This document shows, in pieces, positions 11,214-28,520 of a stretch of 45,879 bases of DNA (within the stretch, counting starts at the first letter, position 1; each line of letters opens with the position of its first letter). This DNA is from Ramlibacter sp. GTDB lineage: Bacteria; Pseudomonadota; Gammaproteobacteria; Burkholderiales; Burkholderiaceae_C. Made by a program: the position numbers and the translations under genes. The stretch is from positions 1 to 45,879 of the forward strand of contig JAQGMU010000558.1 in assembly GCA_028292195.1 (NCBI GenBank), written 5' to 3'. The notes under the pieces are model-generated. The model was not told where the DNA came from. It saw nothing but the letters and a program-made list of their open reading frames with translations, and did not search any database.

Positions 11214-11289
<76 letters not shown>

Positions 11290-11307
11290 CAACATGTTTT
11301 CGGCAGT

Positions 11308-11383
11308 GGGTTCTTAGCTCAGTTGGTAGAGCAGCGGACTCTTAATCCGTAGGTCGACAGTTCGAATCTGTCAGGACCCACCA
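11308..11383 (+). tRNA. tRNA-Lys (anticodon CTT)
   Basis: 76-nt cloverleaf, anticodon loop CTCTTAA, T-loop TTCGAAT, encoded CCA. Confidence 0.93.
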
Positions 11384-13028: not shown

Positions 13029-14183
13029 TCAGCCCAGCGCGCGAAAGAAGTCGCGGACGTCGGTGACGATGGCTTGCGGTTCTTCCCAAGCCGCGAAGTG
13101 ACCGCCGCTGGTGTGCTGCCGCCACTGCTTGAGGTTGTAGTAGCGCTGGGCCCAGCGGCGCGGCGCGTTGCATACCTCTTCCGGCAATACCGTAATGCCG
13201 ACGGGAACCTCCACCACCGGCATGCGGCCATGCGCCGGCTTCCAGGGAAGGTGTGCAGCCTCGTAGTAGTAGCGCGCCGACGTGCCGTAGCTCTCCGTCA
13301 CCCAGTAGATCATGATCGTGGTCAGCAGGTCGTCCTTGCTGAAGCGGGTTTCGACGTCACCGTGACAATCACTCCAGCTGCGCTGCTTTTCGACGATCCA
13401 GGATGCCAGTCCCACGGGTGAGTCGTTGAGTGCTGCCGCGATCGTCTGCGGCTTGGTGCTTTGCAGTGCGGAGTAGGCGGACTCCGTTGCGAAGAAATTC
13501 TGCAGGCGGTCCGCCAACCGCGCTTCGTCGGAGTCATAGTCTTCCGGCGCCGGCATGCCGCCGCTGAATAAGTCCAGGGGCAGCATCATCGGAATGTGGA
13601 TGCCCATGACGCGATCGGGATAGCGGTGCCCGACGTCCGCCGTGACCAGCGCACCCCAATCGGCACCGTGCGCGGCAAAACGGGGATAACCCAGCCGCTC
13701 CATGAGCGTCACCCATAGCCCGGAAGTCCGCCAGAAATTCATGCCGGTCTGGCGCAGCGGCGTTGAGAAGCCATAGCCTGGCAACGACGGCACCACGACA
13801 TCGAAGGCGTCGGCAGGATCGCCGCCGTGCGCGCCCGGATCGGTGAGGAGACCGATCACCTTGTGGTACTCCCAGAATGTCCAGGGCCATCCATGCGAGA
13901 GCACCAGTGGTTTCGGATTGGGTCCCTTGCCCCGCACGTGAATGAAGTGGATGGGTACGCCATCAATGTCCATGCGGAACTGCGGAAAGGCGTTGATCGC
14001 GCGCTCCTGCCGTCGCCAGTCGTACCCGTCGATCCAGTAGCCCACCAGTTCCTTGAGGTAGGCGGTGTTGGTGCCGTACTGCCAACCTTCGTTGGCGAAG
14101 TCGTCGGGCCAACGGGTGCGCGTGAGGCGGGCGCGCAGATCGTCGAGCACTTCATCCGGCACATTGACTCGAAAAGCTTCCAT
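13029..14183 (-). CDS. Epoxide hydrolase (EHN + alpha/beta hydrolase), no signal peptide
   Basis: MEAFRVNVPDEVLDDLRARLTRTRWPDDF EHN region; HGWPWTFWEYHKVI; GADWGALVT nucleophile region. Confidence 0.88.
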   Translation of the reverse strand: MEAFRVNVPDEVLDDLRARLTRTRWPDDFANEGWQYGTNTAYLKELVGYWIDGYDWRRQERAINAFPQFRMDIDGVPIHFIHVRGKGPNPKPLVLSHGWPWTFWEYHKVIGLLTDPGAHGGDPADAFDVVVPSLPGYGFSTPLRQTGMNFWRTSGLWVTLMERLGYPRFAAHGADWGALVTADVGHRYPDRVMGIHIPMMLPLDLFSGGMPAPEDYDSDEARLADRLQNFFATESAYSALQSTKPQTIAAALNDSPVGLASWIVEKQRSWSDCHGDVETRFSKDDLLTTIMIYWVTESYGTSARYYYEAAHLPWKPAHGRMPVVEVPVGITVLPEEVCNAPRRWAQRYYNLKQWRQHTSGGHFAAWEEPQAIVTDVRDFFRALG

Positions 14184-14218
14184 TGCGTCTTTCTCCTGTG
14201 ATTCCGGGTGCATCGTGC

Positions 14219-14256
14219 GGGAGCACCACGGACGATGTCTCGTTCGTGGTGCTCCC
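14219..14256 (-). other. Intercistronic hairpin between two epoxide-hydrolase genes
   Basis: Perfect 12-bp inverted repeat GGGAGCACCACG (14219-14230)/CGTGGTGCTCCC (14245-14256), 14-nt loop, no T tract. Confidence 0.7.
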
Positions 14257-14264
14257 TCCATCTG

Positions 14265-15581
14265 CTAGGCGCGCAGCGACCGGAAGCCCGCGCGAACCTC
14301 TTTCGAGAAGATCTCGGGTTGCTCCCAGGCAGCGAAGTGGCCGCCCTGGTCCACCTTGTTGTAATGAACCAGGTTGGGATATGCCCGCTCCGCCCAACTC
14401 CGCGGCAGAGGGTAGAGCTCGTCGGGAAAGACGGTCACGGCAACCGGAATCTTGACTCCCCTGACGCCGAAGAACGACTGCTTGTTCTCCCAGTACAGCC
14501 GGCCCGAGGAGACCGCCGTGCCAGTCAACCACGTGAGCGTGACGTTATCCAGGATGTCGTCTCGCGTGAGGCCGGCGGACTGCCCCGCGAAGACCCGGGA
14601 GATCAGCCGGTAGCTGCGTTGGTCGTGGTCGAGGAAATAGGCCGCCAGGCCGACCGGCGAATCGGCCAGACCGTACATGGTCTGCGGGCGCAACCCGAGC
14701 TGGAACCCGTAGCCAATCCCCTTCTGGTAAACGAATTGCACGCGCTCATACGCGAGCTTCTCTTCGGCCGAGAGATTGGAAGGCGCCGGCGCACCTGAGA
14801 ACGCCGCCTTGTCGATGTCCTCCGGGATCGCATTTGGCATGTTGGTATGGATGCCGATCAATTCCGGCGCTGCCTGCGCACCCATCAGCTCGGTGATGAC
14901 TGCCCCCCAATCGCCACCTTGCGCGACGAACTTCGTGTACCCCAGGCGCTTCATGAGCACGACCCAGGCGCGCGCGATGTGCTGGGGATCCCAGCCGGTT
15001 GCGCTCGGCTTGCCCGAGAAGCCGTAGCCGGGCATCGACGGAATCACCAGATGGAACGCATCCGAAGCACTGCCGCCATGCGCCGTGGGGTTGGTCAGGG
15101 GATCGATGATCTTCATCTGCTCGAGGATGGATCCGGGCCAACCGTGCGTGACGATGAGCGGCAAGGCGTTCTCGTGTTTCGAACGGACGTGGAGGAAGTG
15201 GATGTCCAGCCCATCGATCTCGGTGACGAACTGCGGGTAGGAGTTCAGCCTGGCCTCGACCTTGCGCCAGTCGTAGTCGGTTCCCCAGTAACGCGCGAGT
15301 GCCTGGGTCGTGGCGAGCTGCACGCCTTGCGAATCATCCGTGACCGTTTCCCGCTCGGGCCATCGGGTCGCGTTGATGCGTCGGCGCAGTTCGGTGAGAT
15401 CCGACTCCGGGAAATTCACGTGAAACGGACGAATGGCAACCCCGTCGGTGCCCTTCTGTTGTGCGACTTGAGTCATGGCGTGAGACCTTTGTGAGAAAGC
15501 GAGAAGACCTAGGGTGCATGCAGCCATCGCTGCAGTTCCGTAGAAGAGACGACGACGGCCGAGATCGGGCGTCTGTTGCAT
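14265..15581 (-). CDS. Exported epoxide hydrolase (Tat-like signal)
   Basis: MQQTPDLGRRRLFYGTAAMAACTLGLLAFSQRSHA; FHVNFPESDLTELRRRINATRWPERE; HGWPGSILEQMK; AQGGDWGAVIT. Confidence 0.88.
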   Translation of the reverse strand: MQQTPDLGRRRLFYGTAAMAACTLGLLAFSQRSHAMTQVAQQKGTDGVAIRPFHVNFPESDLTELRRRINATRWPERETVTDDSQGVQLATTQALARYWGTDYDWRKVEARLNSYPQFVTEIDGLDIHFLHVRSKHENALPLIVTHGWPGSILEQMKIIDPLTNPTAHGGSASDAFHLVIPSMPGYGFSGKPSATGWDPQHIARAWVVLMKRLGYTKFVAQGGDWGAVITELMGAQAAPELIGIHTNMPNAIPEDIDKAAFSGAPAPSNLSAEEKLAYERVQFVYQKGIGYGFQLGLRPQTMYGLADSPVGLAAYFLDHDQRSYRLISRVFAGQSAGLTRDDILDNVTLTWLTGTAVSSGRLYWENKQSFFGVRGVKIPVAVTVFPDELYPLPRSWAERAYPNLVHYNKVDQGGHFAAWEQPEIFSKEVRAGFRSLRA

Positions 15582-15808
15582 GGCGAGCTCCTTGGCAACC
15601 GGTGGTTGCGTTCGGGTGTGACTGCAGGACGTTCACAACCCGGAAGTGAGGATGCCGCGCAGCGAGGTTGGCTTGTATTGCGACGTGGTCTCGCGGTTCG
15701 GGCTCTTGGTATCGAAGCGAACGGTCGCCGCATGCGAATCGAGGGCGATCTACATCCAGCGGGCCGGCAGCCTGCCCGCCTGGTTGGGCGCACTGAACCT
15801 TGGTTCAG
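15567..15808 (-). promoter_or_regulatory. Promoter module copy A (58-bp element + 44-bp box + leader)
   Basis: 58-bp element 15751-15808 ending CTGAACCTTGGTTCAG (15793-15808); 44-bp box 15666-15709; ATG complement at 15579-15581. Confidence 0.7.
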
Positions 15809-16784
15809 CGAAGACCTGGCTTTGAAGCGTGGAGCGGAACGCCGGCGCTTCATCGGCAGCGAGGCGCAGTGTCCGCGTCGCGCGGACCTCGTGCTTGGTC
15901 CCCAAGGTCACGACCAGGTGCTCGATCAACTTGCGCACCGACATCGGCTGGTTGCGGCGCGAGTTGTAGCTGAGCTGCAGCGAAAGCGGCGCGACGCGCC
16001 ATCCTGACAGAATGCGTTGCAGCAGTCCCTGGGCCTCTGCCGCTTGCGCAAGGAACGCGGGCAGCATCACGATGCCTGCACCATGAACCGCCGCATCGGC
16101 GAGCACCTCGATCTGGTTAGCGTGCAATGCCCCCTTCACACTCAACGAACAGGCATCACCGAGTTCCAGTTGCTGGAACGACCAGATCGCCCCCGTGCCT
16201 GCGATCCTCGAGGTGAGGCAGTCGTGCTGGGCGAGTTCCGAAGGATGAGCCGGCTCGCCCTTCTGCGCCAAATAGGCTGGTGCGGCGTAGATTCCGACCT
16301 CCGCACTGGTCAGCGTGCGGACGACTTGCATGGAGCGCAGGTCCTCGGGCAGGCACAACGCCAGGTCCACTTCGTCCAGGACTGCGTTGACGCTTCCTTC
16401 GCACAGTTGCAGATCGACCTGCACTTGTGGATAGCGAGCGCGAAAGGTGGCGAGTGCTGGCCCCAGGTAGTGACGCGCGAACAGTGCCGGCGCAGCCATT
16501 CGGATCACGCCAGCCGGCTCGCTGGCGCTGAGACGCGCGATGGACGCGAGTTCTTCGTAGGATTCCAGCAGGCCTTCCGCGCGGCGCAGGACGTCCTCGC
16601 CGGCGGCGGTGAGTGCGATGCGCCGGGTGGTGCGATGTAGCAGCCGCACACCCAGCAGCGTCTCGAGGTCCTGGACCGTGCGGCTGGCCACCGGGCACGA
16701 GATATCGAGGGCCGATGCGCCGGCGACGAAGCTGCCGTTGTCGGCAACCGCCTTGAACACCGACAGGGCTTTGAGTCGATCCAT
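15750..16784 (-). CDS. LysR-family transcriptional regulator
   Basis: MDRLKALSVFKAVADNGSFVAGASALDISCPVASRTVQDLETLLGVRLLHRTTRRIALT HTH. Confidence 0.9.
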   Translation of the reverse strand: MDRLKALSVFKAVADNGSFVAGASALDISCPVASRTVQDLETLLGVRLLHRTTRRIALTAAGEDVLRRAEGLLESYEELASIARLSASEPAGVIRMAAPALFARHYLGPALATFRARYPQVQVDLQLCEGSVNAVLDEVDLALCLPEDLRSMQVVRTLTSAEVGIYAAPAYLAQKGEPAHPSELAQHDCLTSRIAGTGAIWSFQQLELGDACSLSVKGALHANQIEVLADAAVHGAGIVMLPAFLAQAAEAQGLLQRILSGWRVAPLSLQLSYNSRRNQPMSVRKLIEHLVVTLGTKHEVRATRTLRLAADEAPAFRSTLQSQVFAEPRFSAPNQAGRLPARWM

Positions 16785-16806
16785 GTCCGCTCTCCGTCAA
16801 GATGGG

Positions 16807-17271
16807 TCAGTTGGCAAGAGGCTGCAGCAAATGGCAGGCGGTACTCCACCCGTTGACAACGCCGGCCAGCACGCGGGCGGCGAACGCTATCGCACGCGGG
16901 TTCAGCAACAGGCGCTCCACTTGCGGGCTGCGCGCGGCTCCGGCCAGGCACCAGAAGCAGAAGTGCTCGCAGTTGTTGCGGAGCAGGTCGTAGGCGTCTT
17001 CACCCAGGCGAGAGCACGCACGCGCGGCGACTTCGATGCCGGAATACGCCAAGTTCGCCTCAACGACGACACGTAGCGGGTGGTTATTGCTGAATTCGGC
17101 GAGGCTGACCTTGGCGACGGGGCCGCGACGCAGCGACGTAGACAGCCCGCGGTAGTGAACGACCTGCCCCTCTCCCACGTAGATGCCGTGATGCGTGTAC
17201 CAGCGTCTCGGCGTCACGACGTGCGCACCTAGAGGGAAGTCGACTGCATTCGCCGTCGGCGTCTGTTGCAT
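16807..17271 (-). CDS. LRAT-domain (NlpC/P60-superfamily) protein
   Basis: GAHVVTPRRWYTHHGIYVGEGQVVHYRG and NNCEHFCFWC: conserved LRAT His and Cys motifs; start MQQTPTANAVDF. Confidence 0.82.
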   Translation of the reverse strand: MQQTPTANAVDFPLGAHVVTPRRWYTHHGIYVGEGQVVHYRGLSTSLRRGPVAKVSLAEFSNNHPLRVVVEANLAYSGIEVAARACSRLGEDAYDLLRNNCEHFCFWCLAGAARSPQVERLLLNPRAIAFAARVLAGVVNGWSTACHLLQPLAN

Positions 17272-17494
17272 GGCGAACTCCTCGGCAACCAGTGGCTGCA
17301 TTCGGCGTGAATCAATCGTTCACACACCGGGAGTGAGCATGCGACGCGCGGCGGTTGGCTTGTATTGCGCCGTGGGCTATCGGTTCGGCCTCCTGGTATA
17401 GCCGCGCGGGTGTCCGCCGGCAAAACGCAGGCAACCTTCAACCGGCGGCGCGATAAACCGTGCAGATGGTTGGGGGCCCTGAACCTTGGTTCAG
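17257..17494 (-). promoter_or_regulatory. Promoter module copy B
   Basis: 58-bp element 17437-17494 ending CTGAACCTTGGTTCAG (17479-17494); 44-bp box 17353-17396; ATG complement at 17269-17271. Confidence 0.7.
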
Positions 17495-20400
17495 GAAAGC
17501 GCTGGAAGGGTGAATGCGAAAACAGCGCCCCGAGGCTGCCGGGCGTCAGCCCACAGTTTGCCGCCGTGGGTATTGATGATGGAGCGGCAGATCGGCAACC
17601 CGATCCCGACTCCGTGGGCCTTGGTAGTGTAGAAGGATTCGAACACCCGCTCGCGATTCTCCAGCGCGATGCCGGGCCCCGAGTCCGCCACCGTGACGAG
17701 CAGCTCCTGGGGAGCGCCGAATCCGCTGCAGATCAGCAGGTCCCGCGCCTCGGCGTCGACCTCGGACATGGCCTCGATGGCATTGAGGATCAGGTTCAGC
17801 ATCACCTGTTGCAGTTGAACCCGATCTCCGCGAATCGGTGAAAGACCTTCGGCGAGCCGGGTCTCCACCAGGACACGATTCTTCGACAGTTCGCCTTGCG
17901 CCAGGGCAATCACGTCCTCGATGGCGTCGTTCAGGTCAACGCTTTCCTCGCGGGGCGGCACTTTCCTGACCTGGTCGCGGATTCGGCTAATGATGCCGCT
18001 GGCCCGGTAGGTGTCTTTGACCACGCACCCGAGGGCCTCATGGACTTCCTCCAGATCCGGCGGATCACGGGCGAGAAAGCGCAGAGCCGCGTGCGCGTTG
18101 TTGCGTGCCGCACCAATCGGCTGGTTGACTTCATGCGCGATGGAAGCCGCGAGCTGCCCCAAGGTCACCAAGCGATTCGCGTGGGCCAGTTCCATCTGCA
18201 TTTCGCGCATCGCCTCCGAAGCGCGCTTGCGCTCCGTCAGGTCGAGCACGAAGGCGACGCCCTCGTTGCCGCCTCCCTCGAATGCGGCTACGCCGATCAG
18301 TACCGGCACGCGGCTGCCATCCTTCCGGAAGTATTCCTTCTCGTACGGCTGCAGGCTGCCCGTCACCTTGAGTTCGGGCACGAGCTGCCGATCTTCCCGC
18401 TCGCGCCACTCCGGCGGCGTCAGGTCCGTCCAGCGCAGGCTACCCACAGCGAGGTCCTGCCGCTCGTATCCGACCAGCTGCAGGAACGCGTCGTTGGCGT
18501 CGAGGATCCGCCCCGTGAGGTCCCAGATGAAGATACCTATGATGTTGGCATCCACTAGGCGCCGGATCCTGGCCTCGCGTTCGGCAAGATCCCGGTACAG
18601 GCGCGCGTTCTCGATGGAGATGGCCGCCTCCGATGCCAGCAGCTTGAGCACCGCCATTCGGGCGGGGGTGAATGCGTGGGCCGTCAGCTTGTTCTCCAGG
18701 TACAGCATCCCCATCAGTCGGGCCTGCTTGAGTATCGGCAGGCAGACCAGTGAGCGGGCGCCGTGCTGGCGAATGTAGTCATCGGCGGGGAACGAGTTCT
18801 CGCGCGAGCCGTCATGCAGCAGCACGGCCTCCTTGGTACGAAGGACGTAGCGGAAGACGGACTCCGAGAGATCCGCAGCCGTGATGTTCGCCTGCCGCAG
18901 ATGGACTTCCACCGTGCCCGCGCGGGTCGTGGCTTCTGCTTCTATTCGATATTCGTCCTCGCGGGGAAGAATCAGCAAGCCGCGTTCGGCGCCAGCATGC
19001 TCGATGGCCGTACGCATGAGCGTGTCGATCAGCTTCTCCAGCACGATCTCGCCCGATAGAGCCTCGGAGACTTTCATCACGGTCGCCAGGTCGAGGCCCT
19101 CCACAGAAGTCTGTATCGTGGTGCCGGCCTCCGGGAGGGGCTTGTCGGCCCCGAGGTACGGATGCAACTGCTCAAGCTGCCGGACCTTGCCATCGGCACC
19201 CCAACGGAGATAGCAGTTCCGCGCATCCCGCAGGTAGGTCGCCGCAATTTTCTCGAAACCCCGCTCCGAGTAGAAGCGCGCGGCTCGCTCGTTGGCGATT
19301 CCCTCATTGTGGACAAGGTCGTGTGTGTGAGCCGAACGCACCGCTTTCTCGAAGAGGTCTTGCGCTTCGAGCACACGCCCTTCGATCCTCGCGATTTCCG
19401 CCGCGACGATCGCTGCCCGGTTCTCGAAGGTGACAGGATTGTGGCCGGCCCACATTTCGAGCTGCTTGCGATGGCCGGCCAGGGCTTCCAGGTGCAAGCG
19501 CTTCTCATCCTCAGGTGCGGACTCGCAAGCTGCGGCGCGCGCCAGCGCGGCGTAATAATGCAAGTCCGCGACTTCGAAGTTCGCCGCCGCGCGCCAGACA
19601 AGCCGCTGCGCATTCAGCGCAGCCTCGATCGCGGATGAGTGGTCGCCCGCAAGATATCGAGCCTGCAATTTACGAACCCAATAGTAGAACTCGGGGAGCC
19701 CTAGATTTGCATCGCTGGCCAGGTGGCGTTCGGCGTCACGCTCGCTGTATCCATCGTGATCCAGAAGCCCGAAAGCCGAATTCAACCCGCGAAGTGTTCG
19801 CGTCAGTCCGATCTGTGCGCTGCAAGTGGCTTGGACGAGGCCCATCTGGACCTTGCTGGCGAAGGCAAGGCCGTGCTCGGCTTCCTCCTGTACTTTGGCA
19901 AGAGCCTCTCCCGCAGCCAATCTGATCGTGACCGACCGCTCCAGGCTATAGCCAGCAAAGGCGACCGCGCCGGCCCGATTCGCGACATCGGACGCGCGGC
20001 GCACCAGTTCGAGCGCGCTGGCCGGGTGCTTTGTCCACGGCAGGACGAGCGCCCCCACACACAGATAGGTCTGCGCTTGATAGCGAGTCAGACCGCGCTT
20101 TTCGACGAGGTCATACCCCAATTGCCCGAACCTGAATCCGTCCCCGTAGTTGTTGAAGCGCGGTCCGGCGAAAAAGGCCATCCAGACATATCCGAAAGCC
20201 GAGGCATCGCAGTTTCCATGTTCGAGGCTGAGACCGACGAGACGGCAGACAACGAGCGAAGCCAAGTGCTCATCGAAGAAAAAGGATGTTGGCGCCGCTT
20301 CCAGAAACACGTTGATGGTGTCCAGGATCTCGGGGTCCGTTACCAGTGGCAGGTCCAGGAGGTCCTCTATCTGACGGTCGCCAAGCAGCGTTCTGGTTCG

Positions 20401-22995
20401 TTCGTACTCACGCGACGCCACTTCCCAGGTGGGATGAATGGCCCAGACGGTGCCTTCACGGCGCAGCCAGTCCAGGAACACGGCCAGTCCTTGCTCGCAT
20501 TTATCCCAGCCGGTGTAAAGCGCCATTCGCAGACGCATCACGGCAATGTAGTCATGGCGGCAGGTGGCGCGTTCGGCCAGGCGTGAGAGGCGGATTTCCG
20601 CGGCGAACCTGTCTGCAGTCAGCAACTCGCATTCGCCCATCAGGCACTCGATGGAAAACAGGAGCGCGTAGTTGCGCTCCCAGGTTTTGTCGGTGAGCAA
20701 CGCGCGGCCGGCGCGCAAGTAGTTGAGGGCCGATTCGAACGCCGTCGAGGCCTTGGCGCGCTGGCCCGCGATCAGGTTCAGATTCGCGACCCGCTCCCGC
20801 TCCTCCGGCGAGTCTATGAGATGGGCGCCCCGGTTCAGCTGGTTGACGATTTCGAATATGGCCTCTTCCAGCTTTCCGGGGGGCGTGTGCTCGGCCAGGA
20901 ACGTGCCCAGGCGCAGATGAGTCGCGGCGCGCAGCTCGGATCCGGCCAACGAATATGCGGCTTCCTGCACGCGGTCATGGAGGAAGCGATACCGGCTGTT
21001 CGCGCGGTAGATCAAGCCGGCGCGAACCGCCTCCCACAGGTTGTCGTGCATTTCGCCGGGGGATAGCTGGCAGGCCATCTGCAACATGTCGATTTCGGCT
21101 CTTTTTCCCAGGCACGCGAACTGATGCAGCGTCGCCTGCGTTACCAAGGGGAGGCGGCTCAACTTCTCGATCATCAGCTCGACGACATTGTCGGTATAGC
21201 CCCTGGCATGGATGAGGTCCAGGTCCCATGACCATCGCCCTTTGTCGTAGTCGAAGGCGAGCAGTCCTTCGTCAGCCAACTCCGATATGAACTGAATCGC
21301 GAAGAAGGGATTGCCATTCGTCTTCTCGTGGATCAACTCCGCCAATGGCGCGACGCGCTCTGGCTCGCAGCGAAGTGAGTCGGCCAGCAATTGCTCCAAA
21401 TGAACCCGAGCCAGCCGCGCGAGCACGATTTCCTGCAATACCGCCCCGCGCTCGTGGACCGACTTCAACTTGCGCATCAAGGGGTGCGCAGCGCTGACTT
21501 CATTGTCCCGATAAGCGCCGATTAGCAGGAGGTGCTTCAGATCGGAACGCATCACCAGGTCCTCGAGCAGATCGAGCGTGGCCCCGTCCAGCCATTGCAG
21601 GTCGTCCAGGAAGAGCGCGAGCGGATGCTCGGGCCGTGCGAAGACGCCGATGAATCGTCCGATGACCAGCTGGAAGCGCCTCTGGGCATCCTGCGCTGCA
21701 AGCTCGGGCACCGCCGGTTGCTCCCCGATGATGTGTTTCAGTTCCGGCACGAGCTCGGTCATCAGCAGTCCATTTGGATCCAGCGCCTCGCGAAGTGCCT
21801 CGCGCCATCGGCACAAGTCTTCTTCGTTCTTGCCCAGGAGCGGACGCACCAATCCACGAAGCGCCTGCGCCAGCGTGGCGTATGGAATGTCTCGCTGGTA
21901 CTGATCGAACTTCCCCGAAGCGAACAATCCGCGAGGAGGAACCAGCGGTTTCTGGAGTTCGTTGACGACAGCGGACTTGCCTATGCCCGAATAGCCGGAG
22001 ACGAGTACCAGTTCGCACCTGCCCCCGGCGACAATACGGTCGAACGCGGCGAGCAGCGTGTCGACCTCCGCCCCACGCCCGTACAGCTTCTCGGGGATCA
22101 TCAGGCCGGGTGGCGCGTCATGATCGCCCAGCGCGAAATCGTGAATGCACCCCTCCTCGCTCCACTCGCAGAGGCAGCGCCGGAGATCGCGCTCGACGCC
22201 CGCGGCCGACTGATAGCGTTCCTCGACGGTCTTGGAAAGCATCTTCAGGGTGAGCGCGGAAATGGCGACGGGAATGCTCGCCAGGCGCTCGCTGGGACTT
22301 GCTGGCTGTCGCGCAATGTGGCAATGAACCCACTCCATCGGGTCGGCAGCCGTGAAGGGAAGCCGGCCGGTCAGCATTTCATAGAACGTGACTCCGAGCG
22401 AGTACAGGTCGCTTCGGGAATCGATGGAACGGTTCACTCTCCCGGTTTGCTCCGGTGCCATGTAGGCGAGCGTCCCTGCTATGAACTCGGGCGGTTCAGG
22501 AGACTGCCGCTCACGCGGCGCGCGGGAAGCAATTCCAAAGCCGGTCAGCCAGACCCGCTCCGTCGCGGAATCCACGATCACGTTGGCGGGCTTGAGGTCC
22601 TTGTGAATGAGGCCGCATCCGTGAAGTCGGCCGATGGCGCTTGACATTGCCACCGCGAGGCGCAGGAATCGTCCGACTTCCATGGGTTGATGAATCAGCC
22701 GGTCCAGGGGCTCACCGCCTGCGAAATCGACAACCAGCAGCGTGCGTCCGGCCTCGCGCACGAGTTGCGCGGGCCGCAATGCCCAAGCGGCGTCAAGGTA
22801 GTCCCTGAGTTCGTACTCGTGAGCGAGACGGTCCGTGCTCCCTTGTGTCGAGGCCTCAACGCCCGAGTTCACGGAGACGAAGGCGTGCCGATCGCCATCG
22901 TCACCACTGCTGCGCAGCTTCCAGAAGGCACGCCCGGCGTCTTCCCACAGCAAGTCCGCGGGACCGCTTGCCGCACCAGCACTCAAACCAATCAT
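17491..22995 (-). CDS. Multidomain sensor: Ser/Thr kinase-like - AAA ATPase - GAF - PAS - histidine kinase
   Basis: HKDLKPANVIV...MAPEQTGR; Walker A SGYSGIGKS; Walker B ALFLDDLQWLD; GAF VCLPILKQARLMGMLYLEN; PAS VDANIIGIFIWDLTGRILDANDAF; HisKA AASIAHEVNQPIGAARNNA; HATPase ADSGPGIALENRERVFESFYTTK. Confidence 0.93.
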   Translation of the reverse strand: MIGLSAGAASGPADLLWEDAGRAFWKLRSSGDDGDRHAFVSVNSGVEASTQGSTDRLAHEYELRDYLDAAWALRPAQLVREAGRTLLVVDFAGGEPLDRLIHQPMEVGRFLRLAVAMSSAIGRLHGCGLIHKDLKPANVIVDSATERVWLTGFGIASRAPRERQSPEPPEFIAGTLAYMAPEQTGRVNRSIDSRSDLYSLGVTFYEMLTGRLPFTAADPMEWVHCHIARQPASPSERLASIPVAISALTLKMLSKTVEERYQSAAGVERDLRRCLCEWSEEGCIHDFALGDHDAPPGLMIPEKLYGRGAEVDTLLAAFDRIVAGGRCELVLVSGYSGIGKSAVVNELQKPLVPPRGLFASGKFDQYQRDIPYATLAQALRGLVRPLLGKNEEDLCRWREALREALDPNGLLMTELVPELKHIIGEQPAVPELAAQDAQRRFQLVIGRFIGVFARPEHPLALFLDDLQWLDGATLDLLEDLVMRSDLKHLLLIGAYRDNEVSAAHPLMRKLKSVHERGAVLQEIVLARLARVHLEQLLADSLRCEPERVAPLAELIHEKTNGNPFFAIQFISELADEGLLAFDYDKGRWSWDLDLIHARGYTDNVVELMIEKLSRLPLVTQATLHQFACLGKRAEIDMLQMACQLSPGEMHDNLWEAVRAGLIYRANSRYRFLHDRVQEAAYSLAGSELRAATHLRLGTFLAEHTPPGKLEEAIFEIVNQLNRGAHLIDSPEERERVANLNLIAGQRAKASTAFESALNYLRAGRALLTDKTWERNYALLFSIECLMGECELLTADRFAAEIRLSRLAERATCRHDYIAVMRLRMALYTGWDKCEQGLAVFLDWLRREGTVWAIHPTWEVASREYERTRTLLGDRQIEDLLDLPLVTDPEILDTINVFLEAAPTSFFFDEHLASLVVCRLVGLSLEHGNCDASAFGYVWMAFFAGPRFNNYGDGFRFGQLGYDLVEKRGLTRYQAQTYLCVGALVLPWTKHPASALELVRRASDVANRAGAVAFAGYSLERSVTIRLAAGEALAKVQEEAEHGLAFASKVQMGLVQATCSAQIGLTRTLRGLNSAFGLLDHDGYSERDAERHLASDANLGLPEFYYWVRKLQARYLAGDHSSAIEAALNAQRLVWRAAANFEVADLHYYAALARAAACESAPEDEKRLHLEALAGHRKQLEMWAGHNPVTFENRAAIVAAEIARIEGRVLEAQDLFEKAVRSAHTHDLVHNEGIANERAARFYSERGFEKIAATYLRDARNCYLRWGADGKVRQLEQLHPYLGADKPLPEAGTTIQTSVEGLDLATVMKVSEALSGEIVLEKLIDTLMRTAIEHAGAERGLLILPREDEYRIEAEATTRAGTVEVHLRQANITAADLSESVFRYVLRTKEAVLLHDGSRENSFPADDYIRQHGARSLVCLPILKQARLMGMLYLENKLTAHAFTPARMAVLKLLASEAAISIENARLYRDLAEREARIRRLVDANIIGIFIWDLTGRILDANDAFLQLVGYERQDLAVGSLRWTDLTPPEWREREDRQLVPELKVTGSLQPYEKEYFRKDGSRVPVLIGVAAFEGGGNEGVAFVLDLTERKRASEAMREMQMELAHANRLVTLGQLAASIAHEVNQPIGAARNNAHAALRFLARDPPDLEEVHEALGCVVKDTYRASGIISRIRDQVRKVPPREESVDLNDAIEDVIALAQGELSKNRVLVETRLAEGLSPIRGDRVQLQQVMLNLILNAIEAMSEVDAEARDLLICSGFGAPQELLVTVADSGPGIALENRERVFESFYTTKAHGVGIGLPICRSIINTHGGKLWADARQPRGAVFAFTLPALS

Positions 22996-23435
22996 GGCAT
23001 GCACCCAAGGGTGCCGCGGCCGCGGCTGACAGCGCAACGAAGGCACCCGATCAGGACGGCCTCATCCACTGGCTTGGGAAGGTAGCACCCGACACCCATA
23101 TTCAGGATGTGCTCCTTGCCCTGGTCCTCGGGGTGCGCAGTGATCAGGATCGTCGGGATCGCGTATCCCGTCTGGAGCAGATGCCGGTACAGTTCGACAC
23201 CTGTCATCGCCGGCATTTGAACGTCGGCAACCAGGCAGGCCGTAGCGCGGACCTGGGTGGATGCGAGGAACTCGGCGGCGGACGGGAACACTGCGACGGT
23301 ATAGCCATGCGACTTGAGCAGTCTTCGCATGGAGTCGCGAAACGGCGCGTCGTCGTCGACGACAGAGATCAGGGTTAGCTCGGGCAAGACAGCCTCCGGG
23401 GCGACACGCGGCCACGACAAAGTCCGACAGTTCAA
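22992..23435 (-). CDS. Receiver-domain protein (CheY-like, no output domain)
   Basis: ISVVDDDAPFRDSMRRLLKSHGY...ACLVADVQMPAMTGVELYRHL...ILITAHPEDQG...YLPKPVDEAVL; stop overlaps the kinase start as ATGA. Confidence 0.88.
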   Translation of the reverse strand: MNCRTLSWPRVAPEAVLPELTLISVVDDDAPFRDSMRRLLKSHGYTVAVFPSAAEFLASTQVRATACLVADVQMPAMTGVELYRHLLQTGYAIPTILITAHPEDQGKEHILNMGVGCYLPKPVDEAVLIGCLRCAVSRGRGTLGCMP

Positions 23436-23485
23436 CCGAGGACCGCTCTTGTCGCCAAGAATACCCTCGTAGCCACCCAGGATCT

Positions 23486-23501
23486 CTAAGCCTTGGTTTA
23501 G
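23486..23501. promoter_or_regulatory. Degenerate version of the island palindrome
   Basis: CTAAGCCTTGGTTTAG: same CC-TT-GG core as CTGAACCTTGGTTCAG, 51 bp upstream of the receiver/HK operon. Confidence 0.4.
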
Positions 23502-23507
23502 GCGTGA

Positions 23508-24254
23508 CTACGGGCGCTTGGAGTTCTTCGGCACAAGGTTGAGCTGGTCCGCCATTCGACAAAGTTCCGGGAGCGATGCGGCGCCGATCTTGTGCATCAT
23601 GTTGCTCCGGTGAACCTTCACGGTGGTCTCGGTGATGCCCATGTCGCCGCCAATCTGCTTGTTCAGCCGACCCTGCACCACCTGGATCAGAATGCTGCGC
23701 TCGCGCGGCGTCAGTTCTTCGAAGCGAGCCCGCAGCGCGTTGAGGGATTGTTCGCTCGCGCGGCGGGCGCGGTCTCGCGCAAGGCCCACGTTCACGGCGT
23801 CCAGCAGATCCTGATCCCGGAACGGCTTCGTCAGGAACTCAATGGCCCCCGCCTTCATCGCCTGGACGGTCATCGGAATGTCACCATGTCCGGTGATGAA
23901 GACGATCGGTAGCGTCGCGCCTGCCGCCGCAAGGTCGCGCTGGAATTCCAACCCACTCCGTCCCGGCATTCTTACGTCGAGAACCAGGCATGTGGGGCGA
24001 TCGGGCGGCTCGGATTTCACGTACTCGGCTATGGCCGCAAACGTCAGCGCCTGCAGACCGGCCGATCGCAAGAGTCGCTCGAGCGATTCGCGAAATTCCG
24101 TGTCGTCGTCGATGATCACAACGCAGGCATCCGAGTCCGGAAGCGCCTTCGTCGGCGATTGAAGTTCCACCAGGAGCGCTCCAAACCGTGCCAGTTGCCG
24201 CAATGCGGTCCGAACTCTATCGTGCACGCGTCCGGGCTGGCAGGCAATGACCAT
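23508..24254 (-). CDS. FixJ/NarL-type response regulator (receiver + LuxR HTH)
   Basis: VVIIDDDTEFRESLERLL, VLDVRMPGRSGLEFQRDL, FLTKPFRDQDLLDAV, LTPRERSILIQVVQGRLNKQIGGDMGITETTVKVHRSNMMHKI. Confidence 0.92.
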   Translation of the reverse strand: MVIACQPGRVHDRVRTALRQLARFGALLVELQSPTKALPDSDACVVIIDDDTEFRESLERLLRSAGLQALTFAAIAEYVKSEPPDRPTCLVLDVRMPGRSGLEFQRDLAAAGATLPIVFITGHGDIPMTVQAMKAGAIEFLTKPFRDQDLLDAVNVGLARDRARRASEQSLNALRARFEELTPRERSILIQVVQGRLNKQIGGDMGITETTVKVHRSNMMHKIGAASLPELCRMADQLNLVPKNSKRP

Positions 24255-24338
24255 CGGTGCGTCATGGCTTCTGTGGCAGCTGGGCGACGAACGGCCGGCT
24301 CGACGATCGAGGAGATGGCGAGCCGGCAGCGCGGCCAA

Positions 24339-24806
24339 CTACGCTTCGACGGCGTCCACGACCACGACGTTGGTGGCGACGTCGATATTGCCGTGAACGG
24401 CCTTCGAGTAAGGGCAAACGGCGTGCGCCGCGTGGGCGATGGCCTGGGCCACGTCGAGTGCAACGCCCGGCATGCGGACGTCGATTCGCGCCTGGATGAA
24501 GTACGCATTGCCAGTCATGCCGAGATCCACTTCGATTTCGACGGACAGGTCGGGGGGGAGGGTCACCTTCTTCTCCTTGGCCGCGAGGCCAAGCGCACCG
24601 GTGTAGCACGCCGACCAGGCGCCGGCGAACAACTGCTCAGCGGTCGGATGCATCTGGATGGCGGTGAACACGATCTCATTGCCGGCTTTGCCGGGCGTCG
24701 AGAGCTGGATGTCGATGCGGTCGTCGCCTCGACGGGCGCCGTCGCGGCGGCTGGCCGTCGTGCGGGTCTTGCCCGTGAGAAGAACGGTTTGGATTTTGGT
24801 GGTCAT
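24339..24806 (-). CDS. Organic hydroperoxide resistance protein (Ohr/OsmC family)
   Basis: LFAGAWSACYTGAL and AHAVCPYSKAVHGN: the two Ohr redox Cys motifs. Confidence 0.9.
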   Translation of the reverse strand: MTTKIQTVLLTGKTRTTASRRDGARRGDDRIDIQLSTPGKAGNEIVFTAIQMHPTAEQLFAGAWSACYTGALGLAAKEKKVTLPPDLSVEIEVDLGMTGNAYFIQARIDVRMPGVALDVAQAIAHAAHAVCPYSKAVHGNIDVATNVVVVDAVEA

Positions 24807-24912
24807 TGCGGAGTCCTTTCGGTTGGCCCGGTTGTTGAGGCGCCGGTGCGCGGGTGCGCCGTACGCCATTGGCAACGCGATAGGGCGTGGATCGCGCTGC
24901 CGGGAATGATTC

Positions 24913-24938
24913 GAACGGGTCAGTGCCTTGACCCGTTC
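24913..24938 (-). terminator. Hairpin spanning the stop codon of the 103-aa gene
   Basis: Perfect 10-bp inverted repeat GAACGGGTCA/TGACCCGTTC with 6-nt loop. Confidence 0.5.
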
Positions 24939-25231
24939 TCGAGCGTGATGACTACCGGGAGCGCGTAGTCGCGGCCCACCGTGCTGCGAGCGAAAAAGTA
25001 GTTGTTGCGAGCGCGTTCACTGAGTTCGTCGAGCTGGACCACTCCACGGTGATCGCATGGAAAGGAGAGCGCACGGCCCGAGTCGAACAGCGACGCGAAG
25101 AACAGCTCGTGCGAAACGCGAGGCGTCGTCGAGGGATCGAGGGCGTCGTGCATCGATCGCGCCTGGCATGCAGCGGCTTGCGCTGTGGATCCGAACGCGA
25201 GGCGGTGGCCGAAATTGGGCGTCTGTTGCAT
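24920..25231 (-). CDS. Small conserved hypothetical protein (103 aa) of the MQQTP gene set
   Basis: MQQTPNFGHRLAFG...VSHELFFASLFDSGRALSFPCDHRGVVQLDELSERARNNYFFARSTVGRDY; sits behind promoter module C. Confidence 0.7.
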   Translation of the reverse strand: MQQTPNFGHRLAFGSTAQAAACQARSMHDALDPSTTPRVSHELFFASLFDSGRALSFPCDHRGVVQLDELSERARNNYFFARSTVGRDYALPVVITLENGSRH

Positions 25232-25458
25232 GGCGAACTCCTTGGCAGCCGGCTGGCTGCGTTCGTGGTGACCGGAAGTGGCCACAACCTGGGAGTGAGC
25301 ATGCGAGGCGGGCCGGTTGGCTTGTATTGCGCAGTGGTCGATCGGTTCGACCACTTGGATGCGTGAACGCTGGACTGCCGCACCTGAAGCGCAGGCCGTC
25401 CGCAACCGGCGGGCCGAGAGACTGCGCACTAGGTTGGGTGCACTGAACCTTTGTTCAG
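25217..25458 (-). promoter_or_regulatory. Promoter module copy C
   Basis: 58-bp element 25401-25458 ending CTGAACCTTTGTTCAG (one mismatch); 44-bp box 25315-25358; ATG complement at 25229-25231. Confidence 0.7.
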
Positions 25459-25530
25459 ACCTGGCTGCCTGGGAGCGCTGCGTGAATGGATTGTTGTGAG
25501 GCCGGCAAGACAGCCTTCTGCGCCGCGACC

Positions 25531-25559
25531 TTTTTCTCGATGGCTCCTTTGCCTAATCT
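25531..25559 (+). promoter_or_regulatory. Putative promoter of DUF4148 gene 1
   Basis: TTTTTC - 17 bp - TAATCT, identical spacing and sequence to the copy at 26685-26713. Confidence 0.5.
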
Positions 25560-25648
25560 CAAGCCATCGCGGAGCCGCCAAGCAATGTTCCTCGATACGG
25601 GCACCGCAATCGCGGCACTCGTCTTATCCACCATCGAAAGGAAAGCAT

Positions 25649-26089
25649 ATGAACCGCATCATCGTCCTCGTTGCCCTCGCCATCACGTCGCTGTCCGGGG
25701 TCGCCTTCGCCGGCACCGGGCTTGCTGGTGACATCACCATCGAGACGGAGCCCTTCGTCGCCACGAAATCGCGCGAGCAAGTCAAGGCCGAACTGGCAGA
25801 CGCAATTCGCACGGGGGACATCCTCGCCCACGGGGAGTCCTCCTACCAGTTGAATGAAGTCAATCCGAACCGGTACCCTCCGGCTTACATGGCCGCCGGC
25901 AAGACGCGCGAACAGGTGAAGGCGGAACTCGCGGAAGCGATCCGTACCGGCGACATCCTTGCCGGCGGCGAGTCGTCGCTCAAGCTGAATGAGCTGTATC
26001 CCTGGACCTACCAGGGCGTGGACCGCACGCTGGCCGGCGACGGCCTGCGTCGACTGGCGCAGCGGAGGATCTTTCCCACGACCAACTGA
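25649..26089 (+). CDS. DUF4148-domain exported protein with two internal repeats
   Basis: MNRIIVLVALAITSLSGVAFA signal; (K)TREQVKAELAEAIRTGDILAGGESSLKLNELYP repeated twice. Confidence 0.85.
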   Translation: MNRIIVLVALAITSLSGVAFAGTGLAGDITIETEPFVATKSREQVKAELADAIRTGDILAHGESSYQLNEVNPNRYPPAYMAAGKTREQVKAELAEAIRTGDILAGGESSLKLNELYPWTYQGVDRTLAGDGLRRLAQRRIFPTTN

Positions 26090-26174
26090 GGCTGATGCGC
26101 CGGTCGCACCGCGGCTCACTGCGCATAGGGCGGATCTCGACGGATCCGCCCTTCTCATTCATCTGAAATGCACC

Positions 26175-26426
26175 ATGACGCGCTACAGCCTCTCCTTCCG
26201 CGCACCCCGAGCCGTCTCGCGCAACCAATCCGGACGGCCAACGAGCATCATTGAATGGCCTACCACGCTCCGCTTCAGCCGTCGGCTAGGTGAGTCCGTC
26301 CGGGATGCCAGCTACGCCGCCGCAATCGAGGGACCGGCAGGCCAAGCGTTAATCCTTCTGGATCGCGGAGCTGGATTCGTACCCTGGCTGCTGCAAATGC
26401 TCAATCGGCTGCGTCGCGCCGCTTGA
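26175..26426 (+). CDS. Small hypothetical ORF (uncertain)
   Basis: 83 aa MTRYSLSFRAPRAVSRNQSG...; no recognisable domain. Confidence 0.3.
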   Translation: MTRYSLSFRAPRAVSRNQSGRPTSIIEWPTTLRFSRRLGESVRDASYAAAIEGPAGQALILLDRGAGFVPWLLQMLNRLRRAA

Positions 26427-26543
26427 ACGCTGGCACGCCTGGCCAGCGAAGTAGCCGTTGTTCCATGAGCCCCTTTGAAGTGATGCGAAGTTCAGGCGCC
26501 GAGGCTTGCGCGCGGACTTTGGGCATCGGAACGGCATCCAGCA

Positions 26544-26601
26544 TTCAACCAGCGACCCGAGAGACGACGCACTGGCTTTAGCGCACTGAACCTTGGCTTT
26601 A
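26544..26601. promoter_or_regulatory. Fourth copy of the 58-bp element, without the 44-bp box
   Basis: TTCAACC-N35-CTGAACCTTGGCTTTA; aligns without gaps to copies A-C. Confidence 0.6.
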
Positions 26602-26684
26602 GGCAAGCAGTCGACCAATGCTCCTTGACGTGCCGCGGGACGAAATGTTGCGAATCCCGAAAGGCAGCCTTCTGTGTCACGACC

Positions 26685-26713
26685 TTTTTCTCGCGACTCC
26701 CCCCACGTAATCT
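26685..26713 (+). promoter_or_regulatory. Putative promoter of DUF4148 gene 2
   Basis: TTTTTC - 17 bp - TAATCT, conserved with the upstream paralog. Confidence 0.5.
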
Positions 26714-26804
26714 CAAGTCCGTCGCGGAGCCGTCAAGCCAAAGTTTCTCGATACGAACGCCGCGATCGCGGCGCTCGTTCCATCCACCATCGAAAGGAAT
26801 GCAA

Positions 26805-27173
26805 ATGAACCGTATCACTGCCCTCGTCGCCGTCGCCGTCACTTCCCTGGCCGGTGGCGCCTTTGCCGGCACTGGCCTTGCGGGCGACATCACCGTCGAG
26901 ACGGAGCCCTTTGTCTCCACGCTGTCCCGCGCCGAAATCCGGGCAACGCTGGATGGCTTCCAGAAGTCCGGCGCCAACCCCTGGGCAGACGGCTACGACC
27001 AACTCGCTGGTTTCGTGGGCAGCGAAACTCGCGCAGAGGTGACGGCCGAATACGTTGTCAACCGCGCCGTCGTGGCCGCCCTGACAGGCGAAGACAGCGG
27101 TTCGCAGTACTTCGCGGAAGGTGTCATCACCCGTCACGCCGTCCGCATCGCCGGCGACGGTTTCAAGCGATAA
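26805..27173 (+). CDS. DUF4148-like exported protein, paralog of the upstream gene
   Basis: MNRITALVAVAVTSLAGGAFAGTGLAGDITVETEPFVSTLSRAEIRATL; near-identical N-terminus to 25649-26089. Confidence 0.8.
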   Translation: MNRITALVAVAVTSLAGGAFAGTGLAGDITVETEPFVSTLSRAEIRATLDGFQKSGANPWADGYDQLAGFVGSETRAEVTAEYVVNRAVVAALTGEDSGSQYFAEGVITRHAVRIAGDGFKR

Positions 27174-27206
27174 GCGTCTCCAGTTCCAATCCCTCCAGGA
27201 GAAATC

Positions 27207-28520
27207 ATGTGCCTTTCCCGCTGGTCTTCTTCTCATCGAGTGCTCGCCGCCTCGCTCCTGTTCATCGCCGCCGCGGCGGGCATGCCCCAGTTGGCAAGCG
27301 CTGCAGATGCGGAGCAAGGCACCTCGATTCGACCTTTTAAGGTCAAGGTGCCTGAATCCGAACTCATGGAGCTCCGCAATCGGCTGGGCGCAACCCGGTG
27401 GCCCGACAGGGAAACCGTGGGTGACCCCTCACAGGGCGCTCAGCTCGCCAAGCTGCAGGACCTGGTGCGCTACTGGGGCACCGAATACGACTGGCGCAAG
27501 GCTGAGGTGAAGCTGAATGCGCTGCCGATGTACGTCACGACGATCGATGGAGTGGACGTCCAATTCATCCATGTCCGCTCACGCCATGCGAACGCGTTGC
27601 CCTTGATCATCACTCACGGGTGGCCTGGCTCCATCATCGAGCAACTGAAGATTGTCGATCCGCTGGTGAATCCCACTGCGCATGGCGGCCGTGCGGAGGA
27701 TGCCTTCGACGTGGTCATCCCGTCGCTTCCTGGCTATGGCTTTTCAGGCAAGCCCGTGGACACCGGCTGGGGCCCCGACCGGATCGGATCGGCCTGGGCC
27801 GTTCTGATGCAGCGACTGGGCTATTCGCGGTATGTTGCGCAGGGCGGTGACTGGGGCTCGCCCGTTGCGCAAGCCATGGGTCGGCAAGCACCTCCGGGAC
27901 TTCTCGGTATCCACGTCAACCTGCCTGCGGCAGTTCCGGGTGAGCTGGTTCCATTGATCGGCGCGGGCGCGCCGCCGCCGCCAGGCCTGTCCGATAAGGA
28001 GCGTGCGACCTTCGAGGCTCTGAAGGCATTCAACAAGATGGGGAATCTGGCCTACGTCACCATGCTGGGGGCCCGCCCACAGGCTGTCGGCTACGGTCTC
28101 ACAGACTCGCCGGCCGGACTCGCCGGGTTCATGCTCGTGCACCCTGGCTTTGCCAAGTGGAGCTATGGCTCGAACCCGACCCAGTCACCCACGCGCGATG
28201 ATGTGCTCGACAACTTTACGCTGTACTGGTTGACGAACAGCGCCACTTCGGCCGCGCGCCTGTACTGGGAAGGGGCGAGTCGCGGCGTCACCAACTCGGC
28301 CGCCCAGCGAACGAACGAGATTTCCGTTCCGGTTGCAGTGACATCGTTTCCCGATGAGGTGTATCAGCCTCCAGAGAGCTGGGCCCGAAAAGCTTTCCGT
28401 AACCTCATCTACTTTCACGAAGCCGAAAGAGGAGGGCACTTCGCCGCTTGGGAGGAGCCGGAAATTTTCGCAGCAGAGTTGCGTTCCGCTTTCAGCTCGC
28501 TGCGCGACGCGCAGCGGTGA
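27207..28520 (+). CDS. Exported epoxide hydrolase
   Basis: Signal VLAASLLFIAAAAGMPQLASA; FKVKVPESELMELRNRLGATRWPDRE; HGWPGSIIEQLKI; AQGGDWGSPVA. Confidence 0.88.
   Translation: MCLSRWSSSHRVLAASLLFIAAAAGMPQLASAADAEQGTSIRPFKVKVPESELMELRNRLGATRWPDRETVGDPSQGAQLAKLQDLVRYWGTEYDWRKAEVKLNALPMYVTTIDGVDVQFIHVRSRHANALPLIITHGWPGSIIEQLKIVDPLVNPTAHGGRAEDAFDVVIPSLPGYGFSGKPVDTGWGPDRIGSAWAVLMQRLGYSRYVAQGGDWGSPVAQAMGRQAPPGLLGIHVNLPAAVPGELVPLIGAGAPPPPGLSDKERATFEALKAFNKMGNLAYVTMLGARPQAVGYGLTDSPAGLAGFMLVHPGFAKWSYGSNPTQSPTRDDVLDNFTLYWLTNSATSAARLYWEGASRGVTNSAAQRTNEISVPVAVTSFPDEVYQPPESWARKAFRNLIYFHEAERGGHFAAWEEPEIFAAELRSAFSSLRDAQR

Follow-up and report, generated by a model that had tools for sequence, protein, structure and literature searches.

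The closest described systems for the locus reported here are response regulators that join a receiver to a GerE domain. StyR, TodT, TutB, and TmoT are reported to recognize the consensus ATAAACN4GTTTAT, for which Lys175, Val176, and His179 are putative contact residues (PMC5874301). StyR works in both directions, as an activator at one site and as a repressor at others (PMC2442086). The NarL dimer binds a site of the 7-2-7 form (PMC7419079), and the NarL/NarP sites have in common with the palindrome described below an inverted pair of 7-bp elements with a 2-bp spacer and a regulator of the receiver-GerE type. The FixJ family shows the same domain order.

We analyzed a stretch of 45,879 nucleotides from Ramlibacter sp. 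(contig JAQGMU010000558.1, assembly GCA_028292195.1), referred to below as the window. We conclude that the palindrome CT(A/G)AACC-AA-GGTT(T/C)AG is probably the operator of a StyR-like response regulator encoded in this window (core at 23508–24170, minus strand), with a probability of roughly 0.85, a figure that refers to the operator assignment and not to activation. This assignment is based on the observations that the palindrome follows the regulator across genera and phyla, that both its presence and its sequence go with the recognition helix, and that its 7-2-7 form and its sequence resemble the boxes of the closest characterized relatives. As the best reading of these comparisons, the operator would control genes for an Ohr-family protein, an LRAT-like protein, and epoxide hydrolases.

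The genes in question form a cluster on the minus strand in the order Ohr, StyR/FixJ-like regulator, CheY-like protein, kinase, LRAT-like protein, LysR, and two epoxide hydrolases. The Ohr-family peroxiredoxin (OsmC-like, TIGR03561, 7.4e-31) is encoded at 24339–24806, and the regulator core consists of a receiver and a GerE domain (Pfam Response_reg 2.5e-26, GerE 6.2e-19), the mechanical open reading frame extending to 24338. The CheY-like single receiver has approximate bounds of 23022–23400, and its translation aligns to regulator receiver domains in related loci. The large sensor kinase of 1851 aa (17491–23046) contains Pkinase, AAA_16, GAF, PAS, HisKA, and HATPase_c domains. It is followed by the LRAT-like protein (16807–17271; PF04970, 1.6e-24), the LysR-type regulator (15750–16784), and two epoxide hydrolases, EH2 (14265–15581; PF06441, 1.4e-39), which has a signal-like N terminus, and downstream of it EH1 (13029–14261; PF06441, 4.5e-38). 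The plus strand contributes a third epoxide hydrolase and two DUF4148 genes, DUF4148a (25649–26089; PF13663, 7e-15) and DUF4148b (26806–27173; PF13663, 2.7e-6). The two DUF4148 genes share a 206-bp upstream/5′ segment that is 80% identical (25583–25788 and 26739–26944); this is another local duplication, the second one here, and it carries a conserved upstream sequence different from that of the operator copies. The cluster is located in a stretch of lower G+C content (about 11400–32000; 0.585–0.645 inside, 0.67–0.70 outside) bordered by tRNA-Ala and tRNA-Lys genes (11214–11383), and this stretch looks horizontally acquired. A search for attachment-site repeats of the tRNA genes returned nothing beyond a 12-mer, and a plasmid search with one of the promoter segments described below (cassette B) gave no match.

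Among proteins of solved structure, the regulator matches StyR best (1yio, E 1.9e-57), followed by FixJ as the second-best full-length match (7.4e-38). It is not FixJ itself: the NCBIfam FixJ model scores 199.1 bits, below its cut-off of 255. The boxes of StyR and TodT resemble the local sites in their 16-bp dyad frame, in the TAAAC core, and in the occurrence of several sites per system. In contrast to the ATAAAC-N4-GTTTAT consensus, which the local sites do not match, the operator here reads CTRAAC-N4-GTTYAG, with C-G instead of A-T as the outer pair and G allowed at position 3. The positions of Lys175, Val176, and His179 are occupied by K, V, and S in the local regulator, and the His179 position carries S, T, V, M, or C among operator-carrying relatives. 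The local kinase is of the Pkinase/AAA/GAF/PAS/HisKA type and not a TodS/StyS-like hybrid; the neighbors and proposed targets are Ohr, LRAT-like, and epoxide hydrolase genes instead of aromatic oxidation operons; and the local site is very distal and comes with a fixed cassette. The analogy to the StyR box is not reproduced within the family, since no ATAAAC-type box was found in three StyR-like family loci (L117, L124, and L126; 3.1–3.6 kb). The NarL/NarP sites differ in sequence and are placed around −44 to −77 relative to the start of transcription, whereas the local operator is a single near-perfect site about 210 bp before the ATG. The local operator would work in the manner of the STY/TOD boxes, but because the consensus, one contact residue, the kinase type, and the target genes do not agree, we do not file it as one of them; we count it instead as a new addition to the broader NarL/FixJ class with 7-2-7 sites.

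The initial annotation had described four palindrome copies within a gapless 58-bp element. Direct reading of the sequences bears out this register and finds operators A (15793–15808; CTGAACCTTGGTTCAG / CTGAACCAAGGTTCAG) and B (17479–17494; CTGAACCTTGGTTCAG) to be perfect palindromes, both scoring 26.6 bits on the minus strand, and operator C (25443–25458, minus strand; CTGAACCTTTGTTCAG; 22.5 bits) to contain one mismatch. Site D (26586–26601, plus strand; CTGAACCTTGGCTTTA; 13.5 bits), which had been taken for a copy with a decayed right half, is better read as the same site in which one arm has gained a base (+1 bp; CTAAAGCC-AA-GGTTCAG on the reverse strand). A fifth copy, operator E (23486–23501, minus strand; CTAAGCCTTGGTTTAG / CTAAACCAAGGCTTAG; 25.1 bits), had been missed. 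The TTCAACC-like heptamer of the element is exact in B and D only, A having TACATCC and C having CGCAACC. Operator A is located upstream of EH2, where the LysR reading frame still covers it with its 3′ end. Operator B lies upstream of the LRAT-like gene and overlaps the histidine kinase gene at its TGA stop codon; a palindrome at the kinase stop is also present in Cupriavidus, Variovorax, and Massilia. Operator E occupies the gap between the stop codon of the FixJ/StyR-like regulator and the CheY-like gene, and its asymmetric sequence recurs in five other genomes (two Cupriavidus, two Variovorax, and one Povalibacter). Operator C sits between the divergent orf169 and DUF4148a, and site D upstream of DUF4148b. 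The gaps between operators A, B, and C and the minus-strand ATGs (15581, 17271, and 25231) are 211, 207, and 211 bp, and those to the plus-strand DUF4148 ATGs are 190 bp (C) and 204 bp (D). The proposal that the element acts in an orientation-tolerant manner finds support from C and D only.

A search of the window for CTGAACCNNGGTTCAG with up to 3 mismatches found 4 matches where 1.97 are expected, which alone is not significant. At ≤1 mismatch, CTRAACCWWGGTTYAG occurs at four sites in the window and at none in 60 Markov shuffles. A weight matrix whose training set came exclusively from other species ranks A, B, E, and C as the top four sites of the window (22.5–26.6 bits), the best of the 60 shuffles reaching 16.3. 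Site D by itself is thus within the chance range and is accepted because of the 58-bp alignment and its position, not because of its score.

Random occurrence throughout the genome had been named as an observation that would count against the motif. In the host genome (G000; 5.5 Mb searched, 82% complete) every match to the generalized motif at ≤1 mismatch falls within the locus, which speaks in favor of the motif. The sole other perfect CTGAACC-NN-GGTTCAG of the host is CTGAACCCCGGTTCAG (contig C371, positions 2–17), which differs in its center. Many members of the family have roughly one copy of this GG/CC-centered sequence in their genome, and in one of them (L006, position 1501) it is located inside 6S RNA. 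From this position we infer that the host match on C371 probably also lies in the 6S RNA gene. An Rfam search of L003, where the match sits at a contig edge, returned nothing. The GG/CC-centered form was rejected as an operator because of its position within 6S RNA in L006.

A contig scan with the regulator as query produced 80 loci. Orthologous regulators accompanied by the palindrome occur in Cupriavidus, Variovorax, Massilia, Povalibacter, Rhodanobacter, Dyella, and one Terriglobia MAG, and the Bradyrhizobium version at the regulator locus reads CTAAGCG-NN-CGCTTAG. In Cupriavidus (L035, L040), Variovorax (L036, L071), and Massilia (L037) the genes follow the common order Ohr, regulator, CheY-like, and kinase, and then LRAT-like and/or epoxide hydrolase genes. 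Palindromes are placed there before Ohr or an upstream gene, in the regulator/CheY-like gap, at the kinase stop, and before EH2, with some of these positions lacking in some genomes. Rhodanobacter (L042) and Dyella (L056) contain one palindrome between divergent regulator and CheY-like genes and a second at the kinase end, before EH2. Nine whole genomes with an orthologous regulator have the motif (≤1 mismatch) almost confined to the regulator locus, with two matches outside, one each in G300 and G303. The strict form appears one to two times per genome in eight Bradyrhizobium genomes, and the positions that were checked are the sites beside the regulator. Within the host family we read the cluster as rare, since only one of 299 genomes, the host itself, encodes a regulator of >58% identity; a search of three further members of the genus did not find it.

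The same palindromes emerge when no sequence is specified in advance. Of all perfect 7-2-7 palindromes that the 80 loci contain, CTAAGCG..CGCTTAG is shared most widely (13 loci, Bradyrhizobium), and the next include CTAAACC (4 loci), CTGAACC (3 loci), and CTAAGCC (2 loci). The combined form CTRARCS-NN-SGYTYAG (CTRARCSNNSGYTYAG) gives 43 matches in 1.40 Mb, compared to 1 after shuffling and 1 for the reversed pattern. A fixed CTGAACC pattern was discarded for the rhizobia, where it gave no match at ≤2 mismatches except for single weak ones, CTAAGCG being present instead.

Of the 35 loci with the recognition helix [T/S/A]TVKVHR, 32 have an operator no more than 300 bp from the regulator (the site is missing from L070, L087, and L057); none of the 45 other loci does. 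The corresponding Fisher test (p = 3e-19) is descriptive only and overstates the case, because the 80 loci are phylogenetically related and the helix class was drawn after the helices had been seen. Eight loci at 58–65% regulator identity with another helix contain no operator, and operator carriers reach down to 58%; the split does not reflect overall regulator similarity alone. These comparative data favor what the initial annotation had suggested, namely an upstream regulatory site with the local FixJ-type regulator as its candidate binder.

The 58-bp element is present as described, but it is only the start of a longer promoter/leader cassette, over which the similarity of A–C runs on. Cassettes A (15572–15808), B (17262–17494), and C (25222–25458), all on the minus strand, have a common layout of about 235 bp: operator, CCCAACC 4 bp on, the GGTTGA position at 35 bp, the core CGCAATACAAGCCAACC, leader, ribosome binding site, and ATG with the MQQTP codons, leading into EH2, the LRAT-like gene, and orf169, respectively. 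We aligned 15 Burkholderiales copies, the three of the window and 12 from five other genomes. Most of the copies in other genera retain GGTTGA at the spacing of the annotated heptamer, and AGGAG precedes the ATG in most of the 15. The conserved core GCAATACAAGCCAACC is found at 15666–15681, 17353–17368, and 25315–25330, and in every one of the 15 cassettes the distance from the start of the operator to the start of GCAATACAA(A/G) is 126–129 bp. A search of the host genome at ≤2 mismatches returned three copies of GCAATACAARCCAACC, each of them in this locus. The epoxide hydrolase, LRAT-like, and orf169 genes (ATGs 15581, 17271, and 25231) open with the same five codons, and MQQTP also begins most non-Ohr copies, although the proteins are unrelated; the copied unit therefore extends into coding sequence. 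A tree of the cassette module was poorly resolved. In L042 and L056, the operator and EH2 are separated by a shared stretch, GATCTTTAC..TAGATC and then CTCAATAGACGC, which is unlike the Burkholderiales one and is perhaps the counterpart of CGCAATACAAGCC.

The leaders (15572–15657, 17262–17344, and 25222–25306, minus strand) may fold such that the Shine-Dalgarno sequence and the start codon are paired. The consensus fold has 23 pairs, with 95.6% of cells paired at a mean column identity of 86%; covariation did not exceed that of shuffles (37–57 of 500), and the fold is not kept in two more distant leaders (L038 and L042). Rfam gave no match for the leader or for window positions 15000–28000 at E up to 1. 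Weak R1 matches (21.8–27.6 bits) occur in nine other genomes of the order. A two-layer unit, in which the StyR-like operator would set transcription and a three-way junction in the ~85-nt leader would hide the Shine-Dalgarno sequence and start codon and so gate translation of EH2, the LRAT-like gene, and orf169, the whole unit including the first codons having been copied before unrelated genes, is a speculative model that we consider rather doubtful.

As to how the regulator may work, the large sensor kinase would phosphorylate it, and its dimer would bind the 7-2-7 dyad with one GerE domain per half site. Binding would occur about 210 bp upstream of EH2, the LRAT-like gene, and orf169, in the regulator/CheY-like gap (site E), where it would lead to autoregulation, and possibly also before the DUF4148 genes. 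The promoter can be inferred to lie near the invariant CGCAATACAAGCCAACC core, about 127 bp downstream of the operator, and the bound regulator would most likely activate transcription from there. The distance of ~210 bp to the ATGs counts against the operator reading, as operators are seldom placed so far upstream, and a long leader or bending of the DNA would be needed to account for it. It also argues against simple repression from the same sites, for which a position this far from the presumed promoter core would be an unusual place, and the closest relatives are chiefly activators. StyR-P bound at STY1/STY3 does repress PstyA (PMC2442086), and the position of site E fits autoregulation; repression by the same regulator, or both effects depending on occupancy, is thus a possible variant with the same binder, although a somewhat unlikely one.

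Another protein that travels with the cluster could be the binder. The local LysR-type regulator is one candidate, as its gene is located between B and A, a LysR-type open reading frame also follows the regulator in L045, and a weak LysR match (28%) adjoins the regulator in Rhodanobacter L042. Operator-carrying loci of Cupriavidus, Variovorax, and Massilia have no LysR match in flanks of up to 10 kb, the presence of the site tracks the GerE recognition helix, and the LysR frame extends across operator A, as it would if the gene had been inserted into a cluster that was already there. Binding by LysR or another factor in place of the StyR-like regulator is improbable in light of these data. Even less probable is that the palindrome has no function and that A, B, and C resemble each other merely as remnants of one promoter block that was duplicated. 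The cassettes are indeed homologous over ~235 bp, first codons included, but A–C are only 73–74% identical to each other, no closer than to copies from other genera, while the palindrome is nearly invariant. This explanation is disfavored because the same palindrome occurs outside the cassette, namely at E and at the Bradyrhizobium and Xanthomonadales sites. Finally, an action of the palindrome as RNA (hairpin, terminator, or structured transcript), to which its dyad, the copy B at a stop codon, and the probable 6S RNA match might point, is very unlikely in view of the two-base loop, the lack of a T-run in the surrounding sequence, arms that vary while the 7-2-7 frame is kept, the occurrence in both orientations relative to genes, and a site presence that follows a protein helix.

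The palindrome is very probably the switch through which the StyR-like regulator controls its own gene cluster. As it recurs beside relatives of this regulator in many other bacteria, it is real, but the type of gene control that it exemplifies is already known. A literature search, with most subscription journals outside its coverage, found no paper on this operator or two-component system. With this assignment, a two-component system that has a very large kinase and occurs across several phyla of soil- and plant-associated bacteria acquires an operator and a small regulon. Judging from its proposed targets (Ohr, epoxide hydrolases, and the LRAT-like protein), this system may respond to oxidized lipids or epoxides. 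The operator types CTRAACC (Burkholderiales and Xanthomonadales), CTAAGCG (Bradyrhizobium), and ATAAACC (StyR/TodT) go with differing recognition helices and together make up a natural series in which half-site choice by GerE domains can be examined.
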